Below are positions 8,448 through 64,000 of a stretch of DNA of 64,000 nt, piece by piece. The notes below the pieces were generated by a model. The model saw only the letters and a program-made list of their open reading frames with translations. It ran no database searches and was not told the DNA's origin. Source of the stretch: Gonapodya prolifera JEL478 (lineage: Eukaryota > Monoblepharomycota > Monoblepharidomycetes > Monoblepharidales > Gonapodyaceae); assembly GCA_001574975.1 (NCBI GenBank), contig KQ965757.1, positions 260,037 through 324,036 of the forward strand, written 5' to 3'. Positions within the stretch are counted from its first letter, which is position 1. Each line of letters opens with the position of its first letter. A program made the position numbers and the translations under genes.

Positions 8448-9846
8448 ATGACATCGATTTCGCTACCCATCGATATCCTCAACACGTACATTTCCGTACC
8501 CGTGTACCTCGGTGAGCCGCACACGATCTCCGCTCGAGTTCGCGGAGTGTAATACATGCCGTTACGTAGGCACGCCACCGCAGAAGGTGAACTTGCATCC
8601 AGATTTGGGGTCCGACTCAGTATGGGCGCTCACCCCTTCATGCGATCGCTTCTGTTTGACATCTTGTACGTGGACTGTTGCGACCCCTCAGGAACGTTAT
8701 GAAGTGACCCACTCTCTGATTTTCAAGATAAAAACACCTCTCGGCTGTCTTACAACTCCACTGCGAGCAGCACAGCCCAGCTTACGCCCGAACTCTACGA
8801 CAGCATCACTTACCTCGGAGGATATGTCAGCGGCAGGATTGCCCGCGACGTTCTGTCATTAGGGGACATCCCCTCACCGTCTCCGAACCTCACCATCGCG
8901 TTCATCCAAGCCTCGTACAGCACGTGGTCTGCACTTCGGACCACCGGATTTATGGGACTGAGCTTTCCTGCCCTTTCGCACTACGGAAACAATATCTACT
9001 TGTCGCTCTACAAGGAGTCAGTCGGGTTGAAATCGCCCACCGCACTCCTTTTCCTCGGGTACGTGGTCGCGCGTGCATCATCATTATTGCGATTCCTCGG
9101 CCTTTTAAACGTTGTATTTGCATTCTTTCCTTTTGCCTAGGTCAGCGACATCATTTGACGCCAACCCGAGTCCACCAAACAACGGCGTCCTCCAATTCGG
9201 CGCCACAGAGCAAGACACGCGTCCGTACACAGACTGCACCGTATCCTGGTTTGACGTTCTGTTCGACAACAACTACAACGCTTACACCCTCTGGATGACG
9301 ACCCTTGACGCAGTGTACTTCGAATTCGACGGCGCCCCAGTTGACAGGGTGACCGACCCAACCTCGGGCATCATCGTCCCCAACGTGACGGCCGGACCTC
9401 TCCCAGGCGCCACCACCAACGGCACTGCCCGCCGCGCTATCCTGGACTCGGGCGCGGGTCTCATGTCTGTCCCCGACGCGCTCGCCGAGTCCTTGTACGC
9501 GGCCATTGGCGTGAACTACACCTTCATCTCACACGGCGGGCGGCCACTGTGCAGCGACATTGCGGCAATTGAGTCGACGGTGACGTTTGTGCTCGGCGGG
9601 CGAAACGTTACCGTATCTGCACGGGATTTGGCTCGACCTGGGTACACGGAGGACAAGTACTGCTGGCCCGTGTTCACGCCCTGGGATAGCCCAGACTTCA
9701 TCTTGGGGAGCGTTTTTTTGCAGAGTTTTGTGTGGCTGTTTGATATGGGCACATGGGTCGGCGACGGCGTGCTGCCGGCGGGACCAAAGATTGGGGTGGC
9801 GCCACTGAAGGAGGGGCTCAAGAGGCCCATCTTCCCTTCCCCATAG
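8448..9846 (+). CDS. Pepsin-like aspartic peptidase (family A1), altered first active site
   Basis: Exons 8448-8511, 8570-8665, 8728-9058 and 9141-9846 (introns 58, 62 and 82 nt) give 398 residues. The A1 fold is shown by YLGTPPQ before the first active-site loop, by a flap-side region (ITYLGGYVSGRIARD), by the second active site (ILDSGAGLMSVP, intact DSG) and by the C-terminal FILGSVFLQSFVWLFD. At the first active site the usual DTGS is DLGS (codons 8602-8613). The catalytic Asp is kept but Thr is replaced by Leu. The dead neighbouring copy has the same change, so it is older than the duplication. No signal peptide or propeptide is visible from Met 8448, so the true start may be in an unrecognised upstream exon. 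Many NxT/S sites fit a secreted protein. Family call firm; activity uncertain. Confidence 0.8.
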
Positions 9847-10331
9847 TGCTGATTCTCGGGGATGTGGAGTCCACTTCGGTGAGGGGCAGCACTTGAATGA
9901 GTCGCGTCTTGGCTTCGTGAAAAATATTTATTTTCTCGAGAAGGTCGGTGAGAGGGAGAAGTAGATTGATTACTTGCAACAAAGCTCCAAAAGAATATCA
10001 TATCTCGAGCCGACGCTATAAATTGGATGTCAAGGATAAGTGGCTTATTCCTCGTAGCAAAATCGGAACCGTGTTGCGAATTTCAGGACGCAGCGGCAGT
10101 CCTCCACACACCCGAATGTCTTCCTACCGCGAACCACTTGTTCTGTATCCACAGGGCCGTCGTACGGTGTGTGCATGCAGTCACGAGGCTGTCTCACCGA
10201 ATGTAACATTTGCAAGATCCTGGTACGTTCTCAGCCATTTACCTGCCGCCCCTCAATTTTTGCAGTGAACTGAACAAAGGCGATGCTCCAGGCGATTCAT
10301 CTCCTTTCGTCCATTCAGTACCACGCCGGTG
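9847..10331 (+). other. Spacer between tandem protease copies
   Basis: No gene supported. The last 60 bases before the second copy weakly match the sequence just upstream of the first copy's Met, as expected if the duplication unit began upstream of the start codon. Confidence 0.3.
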
Positions 10332-11729
10332 ATGACTTCGATCTCTATCGATATTCTCAACACCTACAGTTCGGTCTCGGTGTACCTCGGTGAGCAGTCC
10401 CGACCCACGTTGACGCTCGTCCTCGAAAGAATGCAATATAAGCTCTACCACCGTAGGAACGCCGCCGCAGAGGGTTGCACTTCATCCAGACTTGGGGTCT
10501 GATGCAATATGGGCGCTGATGCCAGATTGCCTTCGAGATTGTTCAACGGGTTGTAAGTGATGCGGATATCGCGATAGTTGGTGGTGAAATGACCGATTTT
10601 TTGATTTGCAAGATGCAAATACCTCGCGTTTGTCTTAAAACTCTTCGGCTAGTTCCACTGCGCAAATTCGTGACGAATACGACACCATAGACTACCTCGG
10701 TGGATACGCTAGCGGCCAGATGGCCCACGACGTTATCTCTTTTGGAAAGATCACGACGCAAAGGCCCAACCTCACCGTCGCGCTGCTCCAAGCTTCGTAC
10801 AGGACATGGGCTTCTATTCGGACCACCGGAGTTCTGGGTCTCAGCTATTCCTCTCTCTCCAATTAGCAAAACAACATATATCAGTGGCTTTACAAAAATG
10901 CAGTCGGCCTGAAAGCACCTACTATACTTCTCTACCTTGGGTGGGTTGTTGCTCCGCTGAGGGTTGCATTCTCTTGGTGACATGTGCCGTTCATCGCACC
11001 GCCAGATCTGGACAAGCCTTCGACGCCAATACGAGTCCCCCGAGCAATGGTGTGCTCCAATTTGGTGCCACTGAGAACGACGCACGTCGTTATACAGACC
11101 GATCTGTAACATGGTTCGACGTACTTTACGACAAGAACTATGACGCATACACGCTTTGAATGGCGACACTGGATGCGATGTACCTCAAAATCGACTCCAA
11201 ATGCATCTCGAACCGAACTCACGACCCAAAGTCAGGTCTTATCGTTCCCAAAGTCACTTCCGGACCTATTTTCACCAAGATGACTAACAGCACTGCATGA
11301 CGTGGCATTCTTGACTCAGGAGCCGGAGTCATCTCCGTTCCTTAGGACCTTGCTGAATCACTGTATGTAGCGATCGGGGTCAATTAAACGTTCTTCTCGA
11401 CCGGCGGTCGTCCTCTGCGCAGCGATATAGCAAAGGTCGACTCAACTGTCACTTTTACGCTCGGTGGGCGCAATGTGACCCTCACTGCGCGGGATCTGGT
11501 TCAACCGGGTTACACCGAGGACAAGTACTGCTGGCCTGTATTCTCACCGTGGGACAGTCCGGACTTCTCCCTTGGCGGAGTGTTTCTGCAGAATTTCGTG
11601 GGGCTGTTTGACATTGGGACGTGGGTGGGTGATGGTGTGAAGCCGGTGCGGCCGACGATTGGATTGACTCCACTCAAGGAGGGGCTCAAAAGGCCCCATC
11701 TTCCCTTCCTGACGATGTGTGTGATTTGA
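10332..11729 (+). pseudogene. Dead tandem copy of the pepsin-like aspartic peptidase
   Basis: The copy follows the 8.4 kb protease from its start (MTSISIDILNTY) to its C-terminus (GTWVGDGV...PLKEGLKRP), with the same intron positions and the same altered first active site (HPDLGSDAIW). At least five in-frame stops interrupt it: TAG at 10864, TGA at 11157, TGA at 11298, TAG at 11343 and TAA at 11385. The last exon from 11475 is still open and close to the parent (ARDLVQPGYTEDKYCWPVF). Spread-out stops with the remaining codons preserved indicate inactivation by point mutation after a tandem duplication, not a processed copy, since introns are retained. The duplicated unit is about 1.4 kb, 480 bp downstream of the parent. 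Confidence 0.85.
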
Positions 11730-33240: not shown

Positions 33241-35871
33241 ATGTCCGTCTCTCGTGAAGTTATTCCGTCGAACATCACACCGGCAGGGAAGAAGCTCAAG
33301 CTCTTCACTCGGTGAGTGGGACTGGGTTCAAAATTTAAATTCTGGGACCAAGGTACTGATTGATGTCGCCTATTCTCTGTTTGCTTTTGTCTGTACCGGG
33401 GGAGATTAGCAATGAAGTCGGAACCCACAACTCCGCCGAAGACTGCTGGGTCGTCATCGACTCCTACGTCGTAAGTCGCCCTCCATTTTCCACTCCCATT
33501 TCCCCCCTCACCCCCTTGCCCTTTCCTCCTTACCCACAAACCCCTCCCCCCCAGTACGACCTAACCCGCTTCGCCGACATGCACCCTGGCGGCGCTCTCA
33601 TCATCACCTCTCTGGCGGGTCGGGACGTGACGGACGAGTTCTACGGCCTTCACAGGCAGGAGGTGCTGCAGAAGTTTGGACCGAGATATGTGATTGGGCA
33701 GATTTTGAATGAGAGGGCCAAGGTTGTGGTGAGTTGAGACGCGAGCGAGGCCAAAGCGCGGAGCGCTGACCGAGGAGTCTGCCGGAGGCGAATGTCCCAC
33801 GCGGAGCGTGCATTAAGCGACGGAGTCACCAAGGTCGAGGCCTAAGTGCGAGGCGTCTGCCGGAGGCTAGCTTATACCACGAAGGGGCATCTGAATTCTT
33901 TGATTTACGTGCGGAGTTTCATAGTCAGTATTAATCAATCTTCTCGACTGCCTCTCCTCAGAACACGTACCGCAAACCCGGCGCACTCTCGGACGTTCCC
34001 TACGCCGAGCCCTACTCGGTCCGTCCCGGATTCAAGTCGCCCTACTACGACGGTGAGTCAGCCGAGTACTTTACTCCCTCTCCAACTGCTGAAGTCCAAC
34101 AACGATTTTGATTTTGATACAGAATCCCACCACCGTCTCCGCAAGTGGATGCGCACGTTTGTCGAGGAGCACATCATCCCGGACGCACTCGAGAAGGAGC
34201 AGTCCAACGAGAGGCCCAGCTTGGAGTTATGGAAGAAAATGGCGTAAGTCTCCCCACTGTCTGCTCTTCGACCAAGACGCTATGAAATAACCCGCGCATT
34301 TTCCCCCTCAAAGCGCTGAGGGACTTCACGTCGCTCGTCTCGGCCCCGGCAAGCACATCGCCCAACTCGAGAAAATGGGTCTCAAGCTTCCGTGCGGCCT
34401 GACGGCCGACACGTACACCTACTTCCACGAGGCCGTGCTCAACGAGGAGCTTTCCCGGATCGGCGCGCGCGGGTACGGTGACGGGATTGGAGGCGGCATG
34501 GTCATTGGTCTCCCGCCCGTGTTGAACTTTGGGAGCGAGAAGCTGAGGAATAGGATTATCCCGGAGGTGTTGAAGGGAGAGAAGTTTATATGTTTGGCGA
34601 TTACGGAGGCGTTTGCGGGGAGTGGTGAGTGCGGTGTTGGGATTCTGGGAATCACAATGCTGAGGGGCTGACCTTGTGAACTCTTTTCACAAGACGTCGC
34701 TGGTTTGACCACAACCGCCAAGCTCACCGACGACGGAAAGTTCTGGATCGTCAACGGTACCAAGAAGTGGTACGTATCCCACTCTCCATCTTTCCTTCCC
34801 GTCCCCAACCAAAAACTAAAAATACACTCCCACTCCCACATGCAGGATCACCAACGGCACCTTCGCCGACTACTTCTCTACCGCTTGCCGTACCGACAAG
34901 GGCCTCACCATGATCCTGATCGAGCGCTCCTTTGGCGGCGTGGAGACCAAAGTCATCAAGACGAGTTACTCGCACACGGCGGGAACCAGCTACGTCACGT
35001 TCGAGAACGTTAAAGTTCCTGTGGAGAATACGTTGGGCAAAGTGAATGATGGGCTCAAGGTTGTGTTGAGTAACTTCAACCAGTGAGTTGGTTTGTGATG
35101 TTTGGGGAAGATGTGTGGGAGGCTGATGGATGTTGTGTGTGTCAGCGAGCGATGGGTTATGTGTGTCAGCGCCAACAGGGTCGCTCGTCTTATCCTCGAA
35201 GAATGCATGGTATGTGTGCCACCTCCATTTTCATATTCGAAAAGCACTCACAGGTTCTGTCAATATAGAAATGGGCCGACCAGCGTAAGGTGTTTGGCCA
35301 GAAGCTGAACCAGCAGCCAGTCAGTGAGTATTTAAAGTGTTCGTGATATTGAAAGGGACTTTGTGTCTTATCAAACTTTCTGTGACCAGTTCGCCAGAAG
35401 TTGGCTTCCATGATGGCGAAGATCGAAGCTGACACCGCGTGGCTCGAGAGCATCACCTACCAGGTACGTTTTGGTCATCTCTTCTCAGTGGAGTGATGAG
35501 ATGTGACAAGTGTTCTCTTTTCATGAATCTCAGATGTGCAACATGACCTACGCCGAAATGAGCGAGCACCTCGCCGGACCCATCGGTCTGCTCAAGTTCA
35601 ACATCACCCGAACTGCTCATTGTACGTTTTATCCTCATCCCTTTACCTGTTACCCTTCACATTCTGACCCTCACCGTCCCTTGCAGTGGTCGCCGACGAA
35701 GCCGTCCAAATCTTTGGCGGTCGCGCCATCACCAAGACCGGCATGGGCCGTCTCATCGAGCTATACCAGCGCACGTACAAGTTCGACGCCATCCTGGGAG
35801 GCTCCGAGGAGATTCTCGCCGACTTGGGTGTCAGGCAGGCCCTCAAGAAGATGCCCGTTGAAAAGCTGTGA
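33241..35871 (+). CDS. Cytochrome b5 / acyl-CoA dehydrogenase fusion
   Basis: Thirteen exons from 33241 to 35871, all with GT-AG introns that keep the frame (for example 33241-33311, 33410-33470, 33555-33728, 33962-34052, 34123-34243, 34314-34624). Residues 20-100 are a cytochrome b5 domain with the heme ligand motif MHPGGALI and the second His in FYGLHRQEV. The acyl-CoA dehydrogenase domain follows: N-terminal helices (HHRLRKWMRTFVEEHI), FICLAITEAFAGSDVAG and FWIVNGTKKWITNGTFADY in the FAD/substrate-binding beta domain, WADQRKVFGQKLNQQPV, and QIFGGRAITKTGMGR with ILGGSEEILADLG at the C-terminus. Such fusions occur in fungi, where the b5 unit probably passes electrons from or to the flavin. 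The substrate and catalytic base are not fixed by sequence alone. Intron 3 is unusually long and holds the repeat described separately. Confidence 0.92.
33741..33868 (+). repeat. GC-rich intronic repeat, copy in cyt b5-ACAD intron 3
   Basis: Lies within intron 33729-33961 (233 nt, against 60-100 nt for most introns here), starting 12 nt after the splice donor. Diagnostic words are CTGACCGAGGA (33766-33776), GCCGGAGGCGAA (33781-33792) and GAGGCCTAAG (33837-33846), with a second GCCGGAGGC at the end. The same words in the same transcriptional sense fill an intron of the GH18 gene at 60.6-60.9 kb. No open frame and no terminal inverted repeats are visible. Confidence 0.85.
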
Positions 35872-36037
35872 TACCGCTACGATCGTCAAAACTTTTAATC
35901 CTGTATAATTGCACTGAACACGCATTACTTCACTTTGCAGTTGTATTTTAGCTTTTGTGACTGAAGTTTCTAGATATTGCACTTTACACAGTGCTGAGGT
36001 CAAGACTTATTCCCTTTGTCTTCAATCGCTCGTTTTC

Positions 36038-37167
36038 ATGTCGGCGGAACCATCAGTACCTGGATACAGCTACCCAGAAGCGTCTCAAAGTGTCGATGAT
36101 CCCACCCTGCAAGCCTACTACGCACAGTACTACGCCCAATACGCAGCTCAGGCAGACCCCTCCGCAGCTGCATCGTACGGGGCGCCTGGAACGACGCCCG
36201 CAGCGGGATCAGCGGGCGCCTACGGCTACGCGGACTACTCTGGTGGTGCTGCCGGCGGCTATGCGGCTTATGGGACGGCTGCACCTGTCCAAAACTACGG
36301 GCAGGGAGGCGAGTACGATTACGGCGCGGGATCCAGTGCAGGATATGGGTATGGAGCTCCTGCTGGGGGAGCGTTTCCTGGGTTCCCGCCGATCCCGAAG
36401 AAGGAGCTGGACCCGGTGGCGTTGGCAGAGCGGGGCGGGAAGCAGAAGAAGAAGGGGACGATTCGAGCGGCCGGTGGGGATTTGTGGGAGGATCCGACGA
36501 TGGCGGATTGGGATTCGAGTGAGTAGGGGTTCTCTTGGTTGGGGGTGGTGTCGAAGTGGTCTACGTACTGAAACCTACTCTTGGATGACTCTTCCCAAAG
36601 ATGATTTCCGAATCTTCTGCGGTGACCTTGGTAACGAAGTAAGCGACCAGGACCTGTGAGTTTCATGAACGGCGTGTCTTTCTCTTTGGTCCTTTTGCTG
36701 AGAATCGCCCAACCCCCACTCCGCGACAGCATCCGCGCCTTCACAAAGTACCCCTCGTTCCAAAAAGCAAAAGTCGTCCGAGACAAGCGCACCAACAAGT
36801 CCAAAGGGTACGGATTCGTCAGCTTCAAGGACCCCGAGGATTTCGTCCGGGCAATGAAGGAAATGCAGGGTGAGTAATACCCTCCACCACATTCGGGACG
36901 ATCTCGGGGAAGAAATCTCACGCTCAACGCATATCCTCGCTCACTCAGGTAAATACGTCGGTAACCGCCCTATTAAACTCCGCAAGTCTGCCTGGCAAGA
37001 ACGGAACGTGGACCCGAAGGCCCTCAAGAAAGCCATTCACGGAAGTGGAATCGTCAAAACCCAAGGCGGTAACTTTGCCAGTGGGTATTCTCGCCGCGTT
37101 GGAGAAGATCCTGGCCCATTATTAACTTTTCGGACGTTGTGCAGTTGTGCCCAAGAAAGCCGGCTGA
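36038..37167 (+). CDS. RRM RNA-binding protein, RBM42-like
   Basis: Exons 36038-36518, 36601-36655, 36730-36869, 36949-37080 and 37145-37167 (introns 82, 74, 79 and 64 nt) encode about 276 residues. The N-terminal half is a Tyr/Gly/Ala-rich low-complexity region with a YYAQYYAQYAAQ repeat. A Lys-rich linker (KKELDPVALAERGGKQKKK) leads to a single C-terminal RRM with RNP2 RIFCGDL and RNP1 KGYGFVSF, split by two introns, and the family-typical tail KYVGNRPIKLRKSAW. Domain order and the tail match RBM42-type proteins, which bind RNA and are linked to hnRNP K and splicing in animals. The nuclear/RNA-processing role is inferred from the family. It follows the ACAD gene in the same direction after a 166 bp spacer. 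Confidence 0.85.
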
Positions 37168-58064: not shown

Positions 58065-61000
58065 TCATCTCCAGCTGCCCTTACCCATCCCGGCAGCACT
58101 CCCCGTACTCCCTCCCCTCGCATGCCCCACAACTTTATTCCGCTCCTCCATCGCGCGGGCAAGTTGGGCCTGTATCCCGCCGCCGGCACCTGTCGAAGCC
58201 GTCGATCGAGTCGACGCGCTGTCCCCAGTCGCATTCCGACCTGGTGTCGGAACGCCGGCGCCAGGGTAAACTTGGTACACTGGCTCAGTCACCGGCGCTG
58301 CCTGGTTGTAATAAGCGTACCCTGCGTCGACTCCTGTCGTCGTGGACACCATTCCCAACGACCGGCCCGACTTCCCAGACCGAGCGCTGGACCTCGGCGG
58401 GTCAGCTCTCGCGGCGGCGGCGGCGGCGGAGGCCTGCTGCTGTTGCACGAGGTATGCCGCGCCGGGGTTCATCGGTTGCACGTACTGCACTGGAGGGTAC
58501 CCTGGTGCAGTCGCCACGACGGCGGGGGCCGCACCGTACAAGTGCGCCAGAGCAGGGTGGGCGTTGACAGCGGCCGCTTGGGGGTACACCATATGCGCTG
58601 GAACAACCGGAGTGCCCCCGCCGCTTCCTTCGATGTCCGAGCCCGCCAGAGATCCTCGAGAACGATGCGAGGGGGTCTTTCCGGCGCCCATCTGCACAAG
58701 CGGCACGCCACTGGGGCTGCCGACAAGCGACGCTGTGGAAGTGTCGTCTTCGGACATTCCGCCCCGCATAGGTGTCGCGTGGGGCGAGCCGTCCCGTCCA
58801 GGGCTCGTCGGAGCGGCGCCATACCCGCCAGCCCCGCGTGGTGGCGACCCAGGAATAGGCGCTGGTGCGTAGTAGTTGTACAGCGCAGGGTCGGGCTTCG
58901 TGATTGTTGGGGAGGGCATTTTGGCCATCTGCGGCGGGAAGTTAGCGCCCGGTGAGGGGAGCGTTTTGCTGGCGGTGGAGCGGGGCGAGCGAGGGTTATT
59001 GTTGTCTTCGTCATCGGAATCCTCGTCGTCGTCTTCTGACTTGCGCTGGAGGCGAAAGGAAGGGGTGGTGAGAATAATTGGGGCCAGGGGAGAATGGGTA
59101 GAGAAGCAGTGTAGACACGTACCTTGCGCGCCCGTACAAACACCACAGCCGCTGCGACAATCCCCACCGCCACTCCCACACCCACGGCTATCCCGACCAC
59201 TGCTGGAACCGAAACACCCTGGTACACCCAGCCACCACGTTAGTACCATCTCCACACACATCCTCCACATCAACCATCAACTCACCCCACCCCCACCCCC
59301 CACATTCGTCTGCGCTGCCGCCGTAGCCGTGGGCTTCCCCGCGGTCTTCCCACCGCCATTCCCAAGCACGACATCGACCCTCTCAACGCACCGACTTCCC
59401 GCGGGCGTGTTCTTCCCCGACACGGACGTGTTGACGGCCTGGAGTTCCTTGAAGATGAGGTCGGCGTACGAGGAGGTGGGCAGGTTGGAGCAGGGGATGT
59501 TGAGTGTATCCAGGGAGACGTCGCGCAGGAAGACGGCGCCGAAGGTTGGGGTGGTGCGGACTTTGGGTACGGAGGGAGGGGTGAGCGTGTGGAGAGTGAG
59601 GTTGGGGAGGAGGGTGAGTGTTTGGGGAAACGGGTACTCACGTGCTTGAATGAAGTTGTTGGTGTAGAAAGCAGTCACGTTGACGAAATCGCCCGCCTAC
59701 ACGCACATCATCGTAGCGTCAGTCCCATCACACCCTTTCCCTACTCGCCCCCCACCCGCAACTCACATTGCCCCCAACCACCCCTTCATACCCCCACCCC
59801 AAATTCGGGATCTGCACGCCAAACTGCATCTTATCCACCCCTCCCGCCCAACTGCTCCAAGAATTCACGGCCGCGAAGAAATTGTCCGCGCCAGCACCCC
59901 CCGCCCAGGAACACGTGGTGTTGATGAAGGAGAGGACCATGTAGTCGATGAGGGTCGCGTTGGTGCCGAGAAGGGTGAAGCTGGAGGGGCCGAAGAAGGG
60001 CGAGGGGAAGGTGCAGCCGACCGTTGCTGTGGAGCGTGGTTGGGTGGACTCCGTGGTGAGGCGGGTAAAGTGATGAACGGGCAAAGAAAACGGAACTCAC
60101 CCGAAATTGACATATACGTCGGCAACCCGTAATAATCCGCCGGGCTGCTCACGTTCCGCCAGGGGCTCGTATAATTCGCCAGCCCCGTACCTGTGGGCAC
60201 ATCGGGCACGACCTCGCCCGTTGCGTTGGCGGTCCATACGGTGCCGTTGTAAACGATGGTAGTGCCGTTGAACACGGCCGTGGCGTTCACAGAGGGCGTG
60301 GTGGGAGCGAGGGGGTCGATGCCGTTGAGGAGCGTGCGGAGCGTGGTGATGAAAGTCGTGTATGCCGGAGCAGATTCGGCGGGGCTGGGGCGGTGCGGTG
60401 GTGTGATGGTAAGCGTCGCATTCACAACGGGAAATCTTGTCTTGACTCGGCCCGAACTCACTTCACGACCTGAATATCCAACCCATTCAGCACCGCATCG
60501 TCAAACGGCCGCGGCGCGCCCTGGATCGTGCGGTCAAAGAACATGGAGTAGATTTGGTACGCTGACCGGTTGCCGTCGCTGGGGGTAAGGAGGTCCGAGG
60601 GTTTGGAGGCTGCGGTGTGGAGTGGTAGGAAGAGATAAGACATGGCAAAAACTAAAGTCTCTATATCGCTCCACGATGTATTCGCCTCCGGCGGACTCCT
60701 CGGTCAGACTATCGCGCTTAGGCCTCGATGTCGCTCCGCGACGTTCCTCGGTCAGCACTTTGTGCTTACGCCTCGGGTTTCGCTCCGCGGAAGAGTCCTC
60801 GGTCAGCGCTCTCGCGCTTAGGCCTCGGCGCAGTCCTCGCTCCGCTCGGCCTGCGACTACTCACCCAACTGCAACACCACCCTCACCCCGACCCTCTGAC
60901 ACGCCTTAATATCCTTTCCAATCTGCGGGCAATACAACAACGTATACCCATTCGTCTTGCTCTCGTACCCCGTGTAGGCTTGAGCGCCCGAGAAGGAGCA

Positions 61001-61427
61001 GTGGTTGGAGAAGTCGATCCCGGGGGCGTTCTTGGTGGAGAAGTGGGCGAATATGCCCTGGATATAGATTGTGGAGTATTTTTGGAGCTGGCAGACGGCG
61101 GCGAGTGTCGCTTCGGATTGGGCCGTGTCGAGTTGGGCAATGGTGTTTTGGCCCCAGTAGCCGACCATCTGCGTGGGGTAAGGGAGTGTGGGGGATGGGG
61201 GAGAGCGGCGTGAGGAAGTGAGATGTGAGTGGCGGGTGCGAAAAGAGGGGAGAGAAGCGTGAGCTCACTTGGAAAGGAGTGCCCTTGTTGATCGTGTCTG
61301 GCGGTATCCGCGCATGGACAGGGGCAGCGAGGTAAAAGAGTGCGAGGAGAGAAACAAATAGAAGGGAGCGGGTGTTTTTCTGTGTCGATGTCGTGATGGG
61401 ATGGGAGAGAGGGGAGAAGTGTCGCAT
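58065..61427 (-). CDS. Membrane-anchored GH18 chitinase-like protein lacking catalytic residues (copy 1)
   Basis: Exons include 61427-61269, 61168-60865, 60609-60462, 60384-60101, 60026-59767 and 59696-about 59653, then ectodomain, membrane and tail exons to 58065. A signal peptide (RSLLFVSLLALFYLAAPVHA) leads into a class III-type GH18 barrel: MVGYWGQNTIAQLD, LLYCPQIGKDIKACQ, YSMFFDRTIQGAPRPFDDAV, IDYMVLSFINTTC and SWSSWAGGVDKMQFGV. The catalytic signature DGxDxDxE reads NGLDIQVV, so both the general-acid Glu and its supporting Asp are missing. A Cys-containing juxtamembrane region follows, then one membrane helix (VGIAVGVGVAVGIVAAAVVF), VRARK and a roughly 300-residue Ser/Gly/Ala-rich cytoplasmic tail ending GGGIQAQLARAMEERNK. 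The layout is that of a receptor or chitin-binding surface protein, an inference. A paralogue follows at 62.2 kb. Confidence 0.8.
60672..60852 (-). repeat. GC-rich intronic repeat, three-unit copy in GH18 intron 2
   Basis: Fills most of intron 60610-60864 (255 nt). Three units with periods of 48 and 51 bases are marked on the plus strand by TCCTCGGTCAG at 60697, 60745 and 60796. Each is followed within about 15-20 bases by a CTTAGGCCTCG-like word and a CGCTCCGCG-like word, and the block begins with TTCGCCTCCGGC. In the gene's sense these are CTGACCGAGGA, GAGGCCTAAG and GCCGGAGGCGAA, the same words and sense as in the ACAD intron at 33.7 kb. No coding potential. Confidence 0.88.
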
Positions 61428-62202
61428 AGGAACCCGCGCAGGGAAGGGATGGAGCGACAGCGGCAGCGCATTGGAGCCGTTCGAGCATTGCAGTGGCGAC
61501 GCAAAGAGTAGATAAAAGCAGAACCGCGTCCGTCGCTTGAGTGTGCCGGATATGGAAGATACGACTCAGACAAAAACGCACCGAGTCACCCCTCCTGCGA
61601 CGGCTTGCACATCCCATCGCCACCGCCACTCCACCCATCGCTCCTGCGCCGTGTCGGCCCACCACTGTCTCCCGCGAGTCGCGCGCTCTCCGCTCCGTGT
61701 GCATGCGTGCGCCCGCTTTTCGGTTTTGCAAGGGGATCGACTCGGCGTGGCGCATCGTCGGATAAACCTCTGCAAGCGTGCGCCCTCGCACCGGTGGGGG
61801 GATCAATAATTCAATTCTTTTGTACTCTTTCGACTCTCTGTATGCACTGCATTACTTCTCTGTGAGTGCGAAACGTCTGTGTCCGCCGCCCGGAGAAATC
61901 TCCGCGATCTCAGGTACGCCGAGCAGTCAAGCAGAGCAGCACCGGATCCCACTCACGGTTTGGTATACGGGAGGTTGCTAGATAGTCCATTTATGTGCCG
62001 TTTGGCTTTATTGGGCACTTGCCCAGCATCGTTGCAAATCTCTGAATTCAAGAGTCTCTCTCACAAATCCGTGCCCTTTTCTCAATGCTCGCTAATAATG
62101 CTGTATGCAAATCGAAACGCATGTTCTCAAGTTCTCATTAGAATCCAAGTTCGTTCCGAATCATCTCTCTCCCGGTCCAACCACCACGCCCGAGCCCCAC
62201 CA
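61428..62202. other. Spacer between the two GH18 paralogues
   Basis: No gene supported. 61430-61800 is GC-rich and probably carries the promoter of copy 1; 61810-62200 is AT-richer 3' sequence of copy 2. Confidence 0.3.
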
Positions 62203-64000
62203 TCACCTGCCCCCCTGCGCAGCCCTCCTCCGCTCCTCCATTGCCTTCATCAACGCCGCCTGAACTCCTCCTCCTGCTCCTCCCGCTCCACCGGGACTCG
62301 CTGGCGCACCACCCACCATTGCCGCTGAACTCCCTTGCGACGCACTCGATGCCACCGACGCCAACGTCGTCTGACTCCCAGACACAGGTACAGTTCCTGA
62401 TACGCGCACAGGAGATGGGGGCGCCACAGACGACACGTTACCCGCTCCCACACTGGCACCGCTGCCGACTTTCTGGTACACGTATCCCCGTGTCGTCTTC
62501 CTGCCCCTTTCTTCATCCCGTTTCTGCGACTGCACCTGGGTTTGCACCTGGGCCTGCCTCTGGGCCTGCGCTTGCACCTGAGCGACCCCTGCACTCGCCC
62601 TTCCAACCAACGGCGCATCCTCCCCACTCCCCCCACTCGCCGCACTCGACGGCGGGCGACTCGCGAAGCCCAAATCCGCCACGACGACGGGAACGGGCAT
62701 CGCCAGGACGGGCGGCTCGGCCATACGCGTCGTCGACACCATCCCCATAGGCCCGACCGCGTCCGTCGTCAGCGGAATAGAAGGCGACCGCGCGATTGGT
62801 CCGCCAAGAACGGGAGAGGACGTGGACGTGCGTCCCAACGAAGGTGCGCCGGGGGACCCTACACTGCCGGGAGGTGTGGATGCGAGCGGGTACGGCGACT
62901 GCCTCGTCATCGTGGAACCGGCTGTCGGTGTTTTCTTGAGAGGGAGTGTAGGCGTCCCCGCGGGCGAGGGCGGGTTCGTGGAGGGAACCGACGAGGGATC
63001 CACCAGAGCGCGCATCTCGGTCATGCTGCCGAGGGACCCGGAGGGTTCGGGTCCGCGTTTGGATCGCTTGGATTTGCTTGGCTTTGCCTTGGCAGCCGCG
63101 GGAGCAGGTTTGACTTCCCCATTCGTGGACCCGGCGTCCGAGTCGTCATCTTTTGTTCGTGCCTAGTAGGTAACGCGCGTCAGCATCGGTGTTGCTAAGT
63201 CGGTGGGATGAAGATGAAAGCAAGGGTACTCACGTACACCGACCGGTAGGTCACGAACGCTGCCCCCCCAATCACCAGCACACCCGCAAGGCCTCCGACC
63301 GCAATCCCCGCAATAGCACCCGTGCCTAACCCACCTCCCGAGGTCGCCACCTGAGTCGCAATGGGACTCGCAGGCCCCGCAGGCCGTCCCGTCCCATTGC
63401 CCCGTCCCTGCACCACGACACTGTCCTTCCACACGCACTGCTTCCCCACGGGCGTGTTCGCGCCGTCCGCTGTCGTGTTGAAGGATGTGAGGTCGGTGTA
63501 GAGTAGGTCGACGTACCGGGATGTCACGAGGGTGGACGGGGCAGTGCAGGGGAGGTTGAGTTGGTCGAAGGAGGAGTCGTAGAGGGAGACGGCGGTAAAT
63601 TTGGAGACGGTGCGCAGGCGGGGGATGAGAGAGGCGGAGTAGAAGAAGGTGGTGTTGATGAAAGTGTTGGGCTGGGATGGTACGGTAGGAGGTGGGAGAG
63701 GCATTGTCAAGGGGGGGCGTCCGGTGTGGCAATTGTGTAACTAAACGTATCAACTCACATCCGACTCCGTAAATGCCTCATAGCCCCATCCAATATTGGG
63801 CAACTGGGCCGCGAACTCGAGCTTATCCACGCCCGCCACCCAGTTACTCCAACTCTGCAGGTTCTGCCAGAACCCGTCCTGGTTCGCCCACGTGCAGTTG
63901 GCGCCGTGACGGTAGGATACGAGAAGGTAGTCGAATTTGGTGGGGACTGTCGAGAGGAGCGTGCCGTTGGAGGGGCCTAGGATGGGGTCGGGGAGGTCGC
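62203..64000 (-). CDS. Membrane-anchored GH18 chitinase-like protein, copy 2 (5' part beyond the window)
   Basis: The visible part begins inside the GH18 barrel (FDYLLVSYRHGANCTW, SWSNWVAGVDKLEFAAQL, NIGWGYEAF), matching IDYMVLSF, SWSSWAGGVDKMQFGV and NLGWGYEG of copy 1. The juxtamembrane exon aligns as well (SLIPRLRTVSKFTAVSLYD, LNLPC, ANTPVGKQCVW). A membrane helix (AIAGIAVGGLAGVLVIGGAA) is followed by a Lys/Arg stop-transfer exon and a roughly 310-residue cytoplasmic tail containing a Gln/Val run (VQAQAQRQAQVQTQVQ). The tail ends GGGVQAALMKAMEERRR, nearly the same as copy 1, and both tails also share MGMVSTT/LGMVSTT. The catalytic motif lies outside the window, so activity is unknown. Tandem duplication on the same strand; the two tails have otherwise diverged. 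Confidence 0.78.

Follow-up and report, generated by a model that had tools for sequence, protein, structure and literature searches.

The window analysed here is the whole stretch of 64,000 nucleotides (C27:260037-324036) taken from the genome of Gonapodya prolifera, which comprises 47.6 Mb in 207 contigs. The species is described as having a record intron density (PMC8476143). Two introns of the window, located in different genes and on opposite strands, carry arrays of the same hairpin repeat (Table 1). Pfam analysis of the spliced N-terminal 380 aa of the first protein revealed the Cyt-b5, Acyl-CoA_dh_N and Acyl-CoA_dh_M domains, which agrees with the cyt b5-ACAD (acyl-CoA dehydrogenase) identity proposed in a sequence-only reading of the window. 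The GH18 name given there to the second gene was not confirmed, as a 175-aa fragment of its product had no Pfam match. The acceptor of the second array intron was placed at 60652 in one gene-finder run and at 60610 in a later one; position 60610 is supported by the homeologue on C21 (two protein matches, 95 and 90% identical). For the first array intron, an intron is present at the same site in the homeologue as well as in a paralogue. Elsewhere in the window (8456-11582), duplicated parts are arranged in tandem at a spacing of about 1.87 kb (families D1 and D2).

Table 1. Positions of the arrays, of their introns and host genes, and of one paralogue locus with an array-free intron on another contig.
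Feature	Position	Strand	Basis and remarks
Host gene of the first array, with many short introns	33241..37125	+	Own gene-finder model; Pfam on spliced N-terminal 380 aa
Array-bearing intron of the cyt b5/acyl-CoA dehydrogenase (ACAD) gene, 233 nt	33729..33961	+	Donor GTGAGT, acceptor CAG; own gene finder gives exactly both ends
Hairpin-repeat array in the ACAD-gene intron	33746..33869	+	Motif cluster, 7 matches; word positions
Approximate host gene region of the second array	58065..64000	-	Own gene finder; 5' limit uncertain, possibly well inside
Array-bearing intron of the second gene ("GH18" in the sequence-only reading), 255 nt	60610..60864	-	Donor GTGAGT at 60864, acceptor CAG at 60610; gene finder and C21 homeologue alignment
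Hairpin-repeat array in the second-gene intron: three D modules, E modules, GCGGAGC mini-hairpins	60666..60846	-	Motif cluster, 12 matches; word positions
Locus L108, FMN_dh paralogue with a GC-AG intron	C14:425560-426100		

The two introns have several GC-rich words in common, as had been claimed for them. CTGACCGAGGA is found at 33766 (+) and at 60697, 60745 and 60796 (-), GAGGCCTAAG at 33837 (+) and at 60717 and 60817 (-), and GCCGGAGGCGAA at 33781 (+) and 60681 (-). In the ACAD gene, the array comprises a D-type module (CGAGGCCAAAGCGC...GCGCTGACCGAGGA), an E-type module (GTCTGCCGGAGGCGAATG) and further degenerate D/E modules. The repeat reads in the sense direction in both genes, and a fuzzy-motif scan of the window returned these two clusters only, so that the other observations made from the sequence, on orientation and on absence from the rest of the window, were also borne out. 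With 233 and 255 nt, both introns are indeed unusually long compared with the median of 84 nt for 389 repeat-free introns from the window and the fetched loci, hereafter ordinary introns.

The repeat is a genome-wide family in the sample that we collected. Chance similarity was far exceeded when the first intron was used as a BLAST query, with at least 49 genome matches at E <= 0.001 (40 of the 146 candidates scored). The exact 13-mer GAGGCCTAAGCGC occurs 322 times in the genome, 164 times forward and 158 times in reverse; its reversed control gave 0 and 1. When no more than one mismatch was tolerated, the 5' module GGAGTGCGAAGCACGGAAGAC was found 47 and 41 times on the two strands (control, 0 and 0), and GCTGACCGAGGMKTC 187 and 147 times (control, 8 and 9). 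The family was estimated at about 900 arrays from the 9 of 27 arrays, selected via the 5' module, that hold the exact 13-mer, and at about 1500 from the reverse calculation (1 of 17); both estimates are rough. No description of such a repeat was found in the titles and abstract beginnings of the literature searched.

The location and orientation of the arrays were determined with a two-strand gene finder written for this genome. For its self-training we used the window together with the first 60 loci, array loci included; its non-coding model is strand-symmetric. The loci were sampled by pattern and by order in the search output, not at random. For L001-L060, a set in which some loci overlap and L040 gave no cluster, 60 of the 69 array instances were in sense introns, none was in an antisense intron or an exon, and nine were uncalled. 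Similarly, 33 of the 34 module copies in L061-L090, which were picked by the 5' module and include a few copies seen twice, were in sense introns, the last one being uncalled. Removing every array that shared any 30-mer with one already counted, at the cost of some genuine ones, left 72 distinct arrays, with 61 called sense-intronic, one antisense-intronic and 10 uncalled. The restriction to introns and the sense orientation proposed from the two window introns therefore hold in the genome sample. Introns make up 14.2% of the window and sequence outside called genes 45%, so random placement, with an expected sense-intron share of about 7%, is excluded.

The uncalled arrays were forced into an intron parse. 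Eight of the 10 came out as sense (L023, L025, L032, L045, L055, L059, the second array of L076 and the first of L079), at a cost in score of about 8 natural-log units for L023 and L025 and of 0.2 to 5.3 for the remaining six. The other two, the second array of L065 and L068, came out as antisense; the L068 array is at the edge of its locus, where a sense donor is visible. Arrays that had been dropped from the 72 were parsed in the same way, L010 and L058 into sense introns and L007 into an antisense one. The L007 array (about 1380-1700) lies outside any called gene and has a direct repeat of about 60 nt on both sides (CGCTTCTTCnCTCGGTGGC...GTTGTGGTTyGGGTACAA). The sole array called antisense in an intron, by gene model, is at 2685-2783 of L086. 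Read on the strand of the array itself, the donor-like word GTGTGGGTG lies shortly before its start; this single case would fit an anchoring to donor-like words.

In 8 of the 10 proteins scanned, a Pfam domain spans the array intron (FMN_dh, ThiF, MscL, NGP1NT, LUD, TFIIB, homoserine DH and MFS). The sense-intron calls are therefore not merely a product of the gene finder. The array introns are presumably still spliced, judging from the reading frames and the Pfam domains that continue across them. The genome also encodes, at C9:271113-271961, the flagellar component radial spoke protein 3 (PF06098); as the genes otherwise look fungal, its presence suggests a flagellated, zoosporic fungus.

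The 77 non-redundant array introns have a median length of 323 nt against the 84 nt of ordinary introns. The median distance from the donor to the start of their first recognised module is 24 nt (quartiles, 13 and 36), in keeping with the start near the donor first noticed in the window. Under loose BLAST scoring, 84% of the positions in the first 10 nt were covered, that is, matched by at least two other array introns, versus 17% in the last 10 nt. The same coverage was 0-6% in ordinary introns. Loose alignments overrun into the exon (54% of the positions in the last 10 exon bases), which blurs the 5' edge. Under strict scoring, a median of 18 nt remained uncovered at the 5' end, compared with 117 nt at the 3' end. 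Array introns thus resemble each other at the donor side, not at the acceptor side, and these values do not describe an element that spans the intron from donor to acceptor. A retroposon of the LINE/SINE type would have a constant 3' end and a variable 5' truncation; the pattern here is the reverse, with a common 5' side and a ragged 3' side. Runs of at least five G were seen just behind the donor, before the first module, in L011, L013, L020, L027, L030, L080 and others. Within the first 60 nt, such runs occur in 29% of the array introns, 19% of the ordinary introns of at least 120 nt and 5% of the shorter ones.

A rival possibility is that selection has sorted the copies. In that case the repeat would enter transcribed or open DNA without regard to orientation, and copies lying in antisense or in exons would then be purged, the antisense strand bearing words that resemble 3' splice sites (CTTAG|G, for example) and sense copies being harmless. 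The antisense of CGAGGCCTAAGCG does contain CTTAG, and the L086 array is an antisense copy by gene model. Moreover, the donor GTGAGT is enriched, being used by 44/77 array introns versus 82/268 introns of 50-110 nt (p = 5e-5); this would be expected if strong signals are needed for long introns to survive. A filter of this kind accounts for the orientation but not for the scarcity of arrays in sequence outside called genes, although such sequence forms 45% of the window, and it leaves the near-constant distance behind the donor without explanation. We consider it unlikely.

The modules follow a recurrent order. Read by eye, the series begins with (CGAACGAACGAGG...), GGTCTGGAGTGCGAAGCACGGAAGACC, GTCCGAGCGnAGCGAGGAC, CGAGGCCTAAGCGC-loop-GCGCTGACCGAGG and GTCCGCCGGAGGCGAATGATCC and continues with CGCGAAGCGG / CGCGGAGCG hairpins, after which it repeats. 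When 74 array introns were compared, the 15 longest matches between introns were collinear over 170-248 nt (74-89%), and no near-identical end-to-end pair was found. Unit spacings recur near 48-57 and 83-97 nt, as ordinary minisatellite growth by local slippage within each intron would produce. Within an intron, however, units resemble one another on average no more than they resemble units of other introns (p = 0.84). In this comparison, where a few introns were represented by two loci or by two homeologues, 125 of 131 units had their nearest relative in another intron. Six had it in the same intron, where 1.1 were expected. These results indicate that it is mostly multi-module blocks that spread, with some local duplication. 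Slippage as the main source of the arrays is contradicted by this comparison and by the presence of the same words, in the same order, in different genes, and we find it barely credible. The similarity between introns was 0.28 for first units, 0.15 for second and 0.14 for third ones. Of 20 arrays, 13 had a first D module nearer to the consensus than their last one, and in four it was worse; a decay of modules from the donor toward the acceptor is suggestive only.

Six gene families were searched for paralogues and four of them (MFS, ACAD, the second gene and FMN_dh) were informative. In all six array introns that could be tested, both window introns included, a paralogue has an array-free intron at the same site. 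For the MFS family, 87 matches led to nine fetched stretches, chosen for matches flanking the site, of which L091 gave no parse. At the phase 1 site GRA|VAG, an array intron of 277 nt in L082 corresponds to an array-free one of 110 nt in L096 (79% exon identity), and an array intron of 230 nt in L097 to array-free ones of 72, 64 and 62 nt in L092-L094 (72-78%). At the phase 0 site GR|AVAG, four bases away, the array intron of L095 measures 512 nt and the array-free introns of L098 and L099 67 and 69 nt (82%). L082, L095 and L097 thus provide three separate array introns at two sites of one family, which hints at recurrent insertion in this non-random sample. The ACAD array intron has a counterpart of 57 nt in the paralogue L107, at the identical VV|NT site, and ordinary introns are found at the identical site of the second gene in L102, L103 and L106. 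At the FMN_dh site, the intron of L002 is 507 nt long with its array, that of L108 is a GC-AG intron of 71 nt without one, and L109 has no intron. Two paralogues were wrongly taken as intronless from the searches. For L108 the search match had run into the intron, and for the ACAD paralogue on C2 an intron missing from the search coordinates is present in the sequence. For calcineurin B, the genome search gave no close paralogue (next best match, 37% identity) and no second copy. For homoserine dehydrogenase, it gave only the homeologue, whose introns also contain array modules. The paralogues without arrays could have lost them; the array-free intron would exist all the same.

A classical introner, or introner-like element, is a repeat that carries splice sites and makes new introns in exons. 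Several features would suit one, namely the hundreds of copies, the sampled ones being in introns of different genes, in sense and starting near the donor, and also the FMN_dh paralogue L109, which lacks an intron where L002 has its array intron. The six array-free counterparts speak against it, as do the intron of L108 at that very FMN_dh site, the 3' ends that the array introns do not have in common and the lack of near-identical end-to-end pairs among the 74 introns compared. We therefore regard an introner as very improbable. Of the suggestion that an introner-like element was creating or enlarging introns here, the enlarging is confirmed and the creating is not. By the evidence of paralogues in the same genome, not of close relatives, both window introns are old introns in which the repeat was inserted later, an outcome that the sequence-only reading had itself named as telling against its proposal.

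Homeologues give an indication of the pace of change. The homeologous introns of the ACAD gene, the second gene and homoserine dehydrogenase have array modules but differ strongly, with exons that are 87-98% identical at the protein level, and we conclude that the arrays are remodelled quickly. Both host genes, ACAD and the second one, have homeologues on C21 (L100, L101), with individual protein matches that are 89-98% identical, and the C29/C93 (L009/L016) and C63/C42 (L076/L110) pairs also look alike. The assembly thus holds homeologous or haplotypic segments.

Hairpins, counted as 4-bp stems with loops of 3-4 nt, have a density of 12.8 per kb in array introns versus 5.4 in ordinary introns. 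In array introns, GNA/GNNA loops are found 197 times on the sense versus 6 times on the antisense strand among 358, compared with 15 versus 15 among 241 in ordinary introns; these loop counts are not independent because the loops descend from common modules. The heptamer GCGNAGC shows the same bias, with 211 sense versus 6 antisense occurrences in array introns and 6 versus 11 in ordinary ones, and outside introns it is balanced (52 and 52 in exons, 40 and 47 outside genes). The four-base loops of array introns are GNYA in 29 cases versus 10 for GNRA, which is the loop rule of RNA. In DNA, mini-hairpins with a GNA or GNNA loop closed by at least two G-C pairs are reported to be extraordinarily stable and nuclease-resistant (PMC4686876). 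The observed loops thus fit this DNA rule better than the GNRA rule of RNA, which suggests that the stable sense-strand hairpins act in single-stranded DNA. The sense-only loops could also come from one founder, without any present function.

At the RNA level, the folding of whole introns was not above that of dinucleotide shuffles (40 array introns, median z of 0.07 in sense and -0.35 in antisense). A stable global RNA fold was accordingly discarded as the cause of the sense orientation. The stem of the D module shows weak covariation: among four pairs, two tie with the maximum of 500 shuffles, a third lies above it and the last is at the shuffled mean. No Rfam match was obtained in the window at the gathering score. 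We also consider it improbable that the arrays are kept by the host as intronic RNA elements, whether splicing enhancers, loops that shorten the distance from donor to branch point or precursors of small structured RNAs. Such a function would agree with the sense-only hairpins, with the position of the arrays on the donor side and with the three separate array introns in one MFS family. Besides the folding and Rfam results, it is at odds with the strong differences between homeologous arrays in genes with similar exons and with the absence of arrays from most paralogous introns in the families read.

On balance, we think it fairly probable that the arrays represent a non-autonomous, modular hairpin element, copies of which insert into pre-existing introns and are then remodelled within them. 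The element would land in sense to transcription, and its 5' edge would lie between a few and a few tens of bases downstream of the 5' splice site. It would leave the acceptor side of the host intron largely intact, and the intron would grow from about 60-110 nt to typically 200-600 nt. New copies would arise by copying that is anchored at the donor region and reads the sense strand as a single-stranded nucleic acid. This might occur, for example, through template switching onto the displaced non-template strand of an R-loop, or through an intron-RNA copy recombining at a donor-like sequence. Donor-anchored copying of the sense strand would explain together the restriction to introns, the single orientation, the near-constant 5' edge and the ragged 3' edge. 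No junction with a target-site duplication and no source copy were found; the copying step itself was not seen, and we infer it from this pattern. It is possible, if doubtful, that the element represents a new kind of intron parasite. Such a parasite would target the stretch behind existing 5' splice sites and be copied through sense DNA exposed by transcription, via its strings of exceptionally stable GNA/GNNA DNA mini-hairpins, and the donor would determine where it lies, which way it reads and where its 5' edge falls.

Introners are the usual explanation of repeats that are confined to introns and to the sense strand. Here, this signature is found genome-wide, yet the introns exist without the repeats wherever this could be tested, so the signature alone is not proof of intron creation. 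The family offers a natural system for asking how an element finds introns and picks one strand, and whether the DNA beside 5' splice sites is open to copying during transcription. It also offers a route for short fungal introns to become long.

The arrays have points in common with several known systems. Their loop rule and heptamer are identical to those of the stable DNA mini-hairpins of the GCGAAGC type, as these are presented in PMC4686876; those are a chemical motif, not a genetic element, which the arrays may form in vivo. The mitochondrial repetitive hairpin-forming or double hairpin elements, thought to be selfish, are likewise short hairpins in many dispersed copies, and the account in PMC2800124 places them in organelle DNA, in intergenic regions and in some genes and rRNAs. 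The arrays, in contrast, are in nuclear spliceosomal introns and in one orientation; the contigs on which they were found reach 1.57 Mb and bear genes with spliceosomal introns, which does not correspond to an organelle location. Introners in general are defined as introns that multiply and create introns (PMC4457414, PMC9860276). The introners derived from DNA transposons resemble our family in being large, non-autonomous and located in introns, but they create introns and part of them have target-site duplications or terminal inverted repeats, according to the description in PMC9860276. Neither of these hallmarks, which a MITE would also carry, was evident by eye in the MFS alignments, where junctions are few and diverged. 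The fungal introner-like elements described in PMC4457414 are themselves introns, occur in near-identical copies and mark newly gained introns. The arrays are like them in their many similar copies in introns of unrelated genes and in their bias toward genes. They are unlike them in that the intron exists without the array (6/6) and in that the 3' part is not common to the copies. The description as an element enlarging introns is thus right, and the term introner-like element, in its defining sense, is not.
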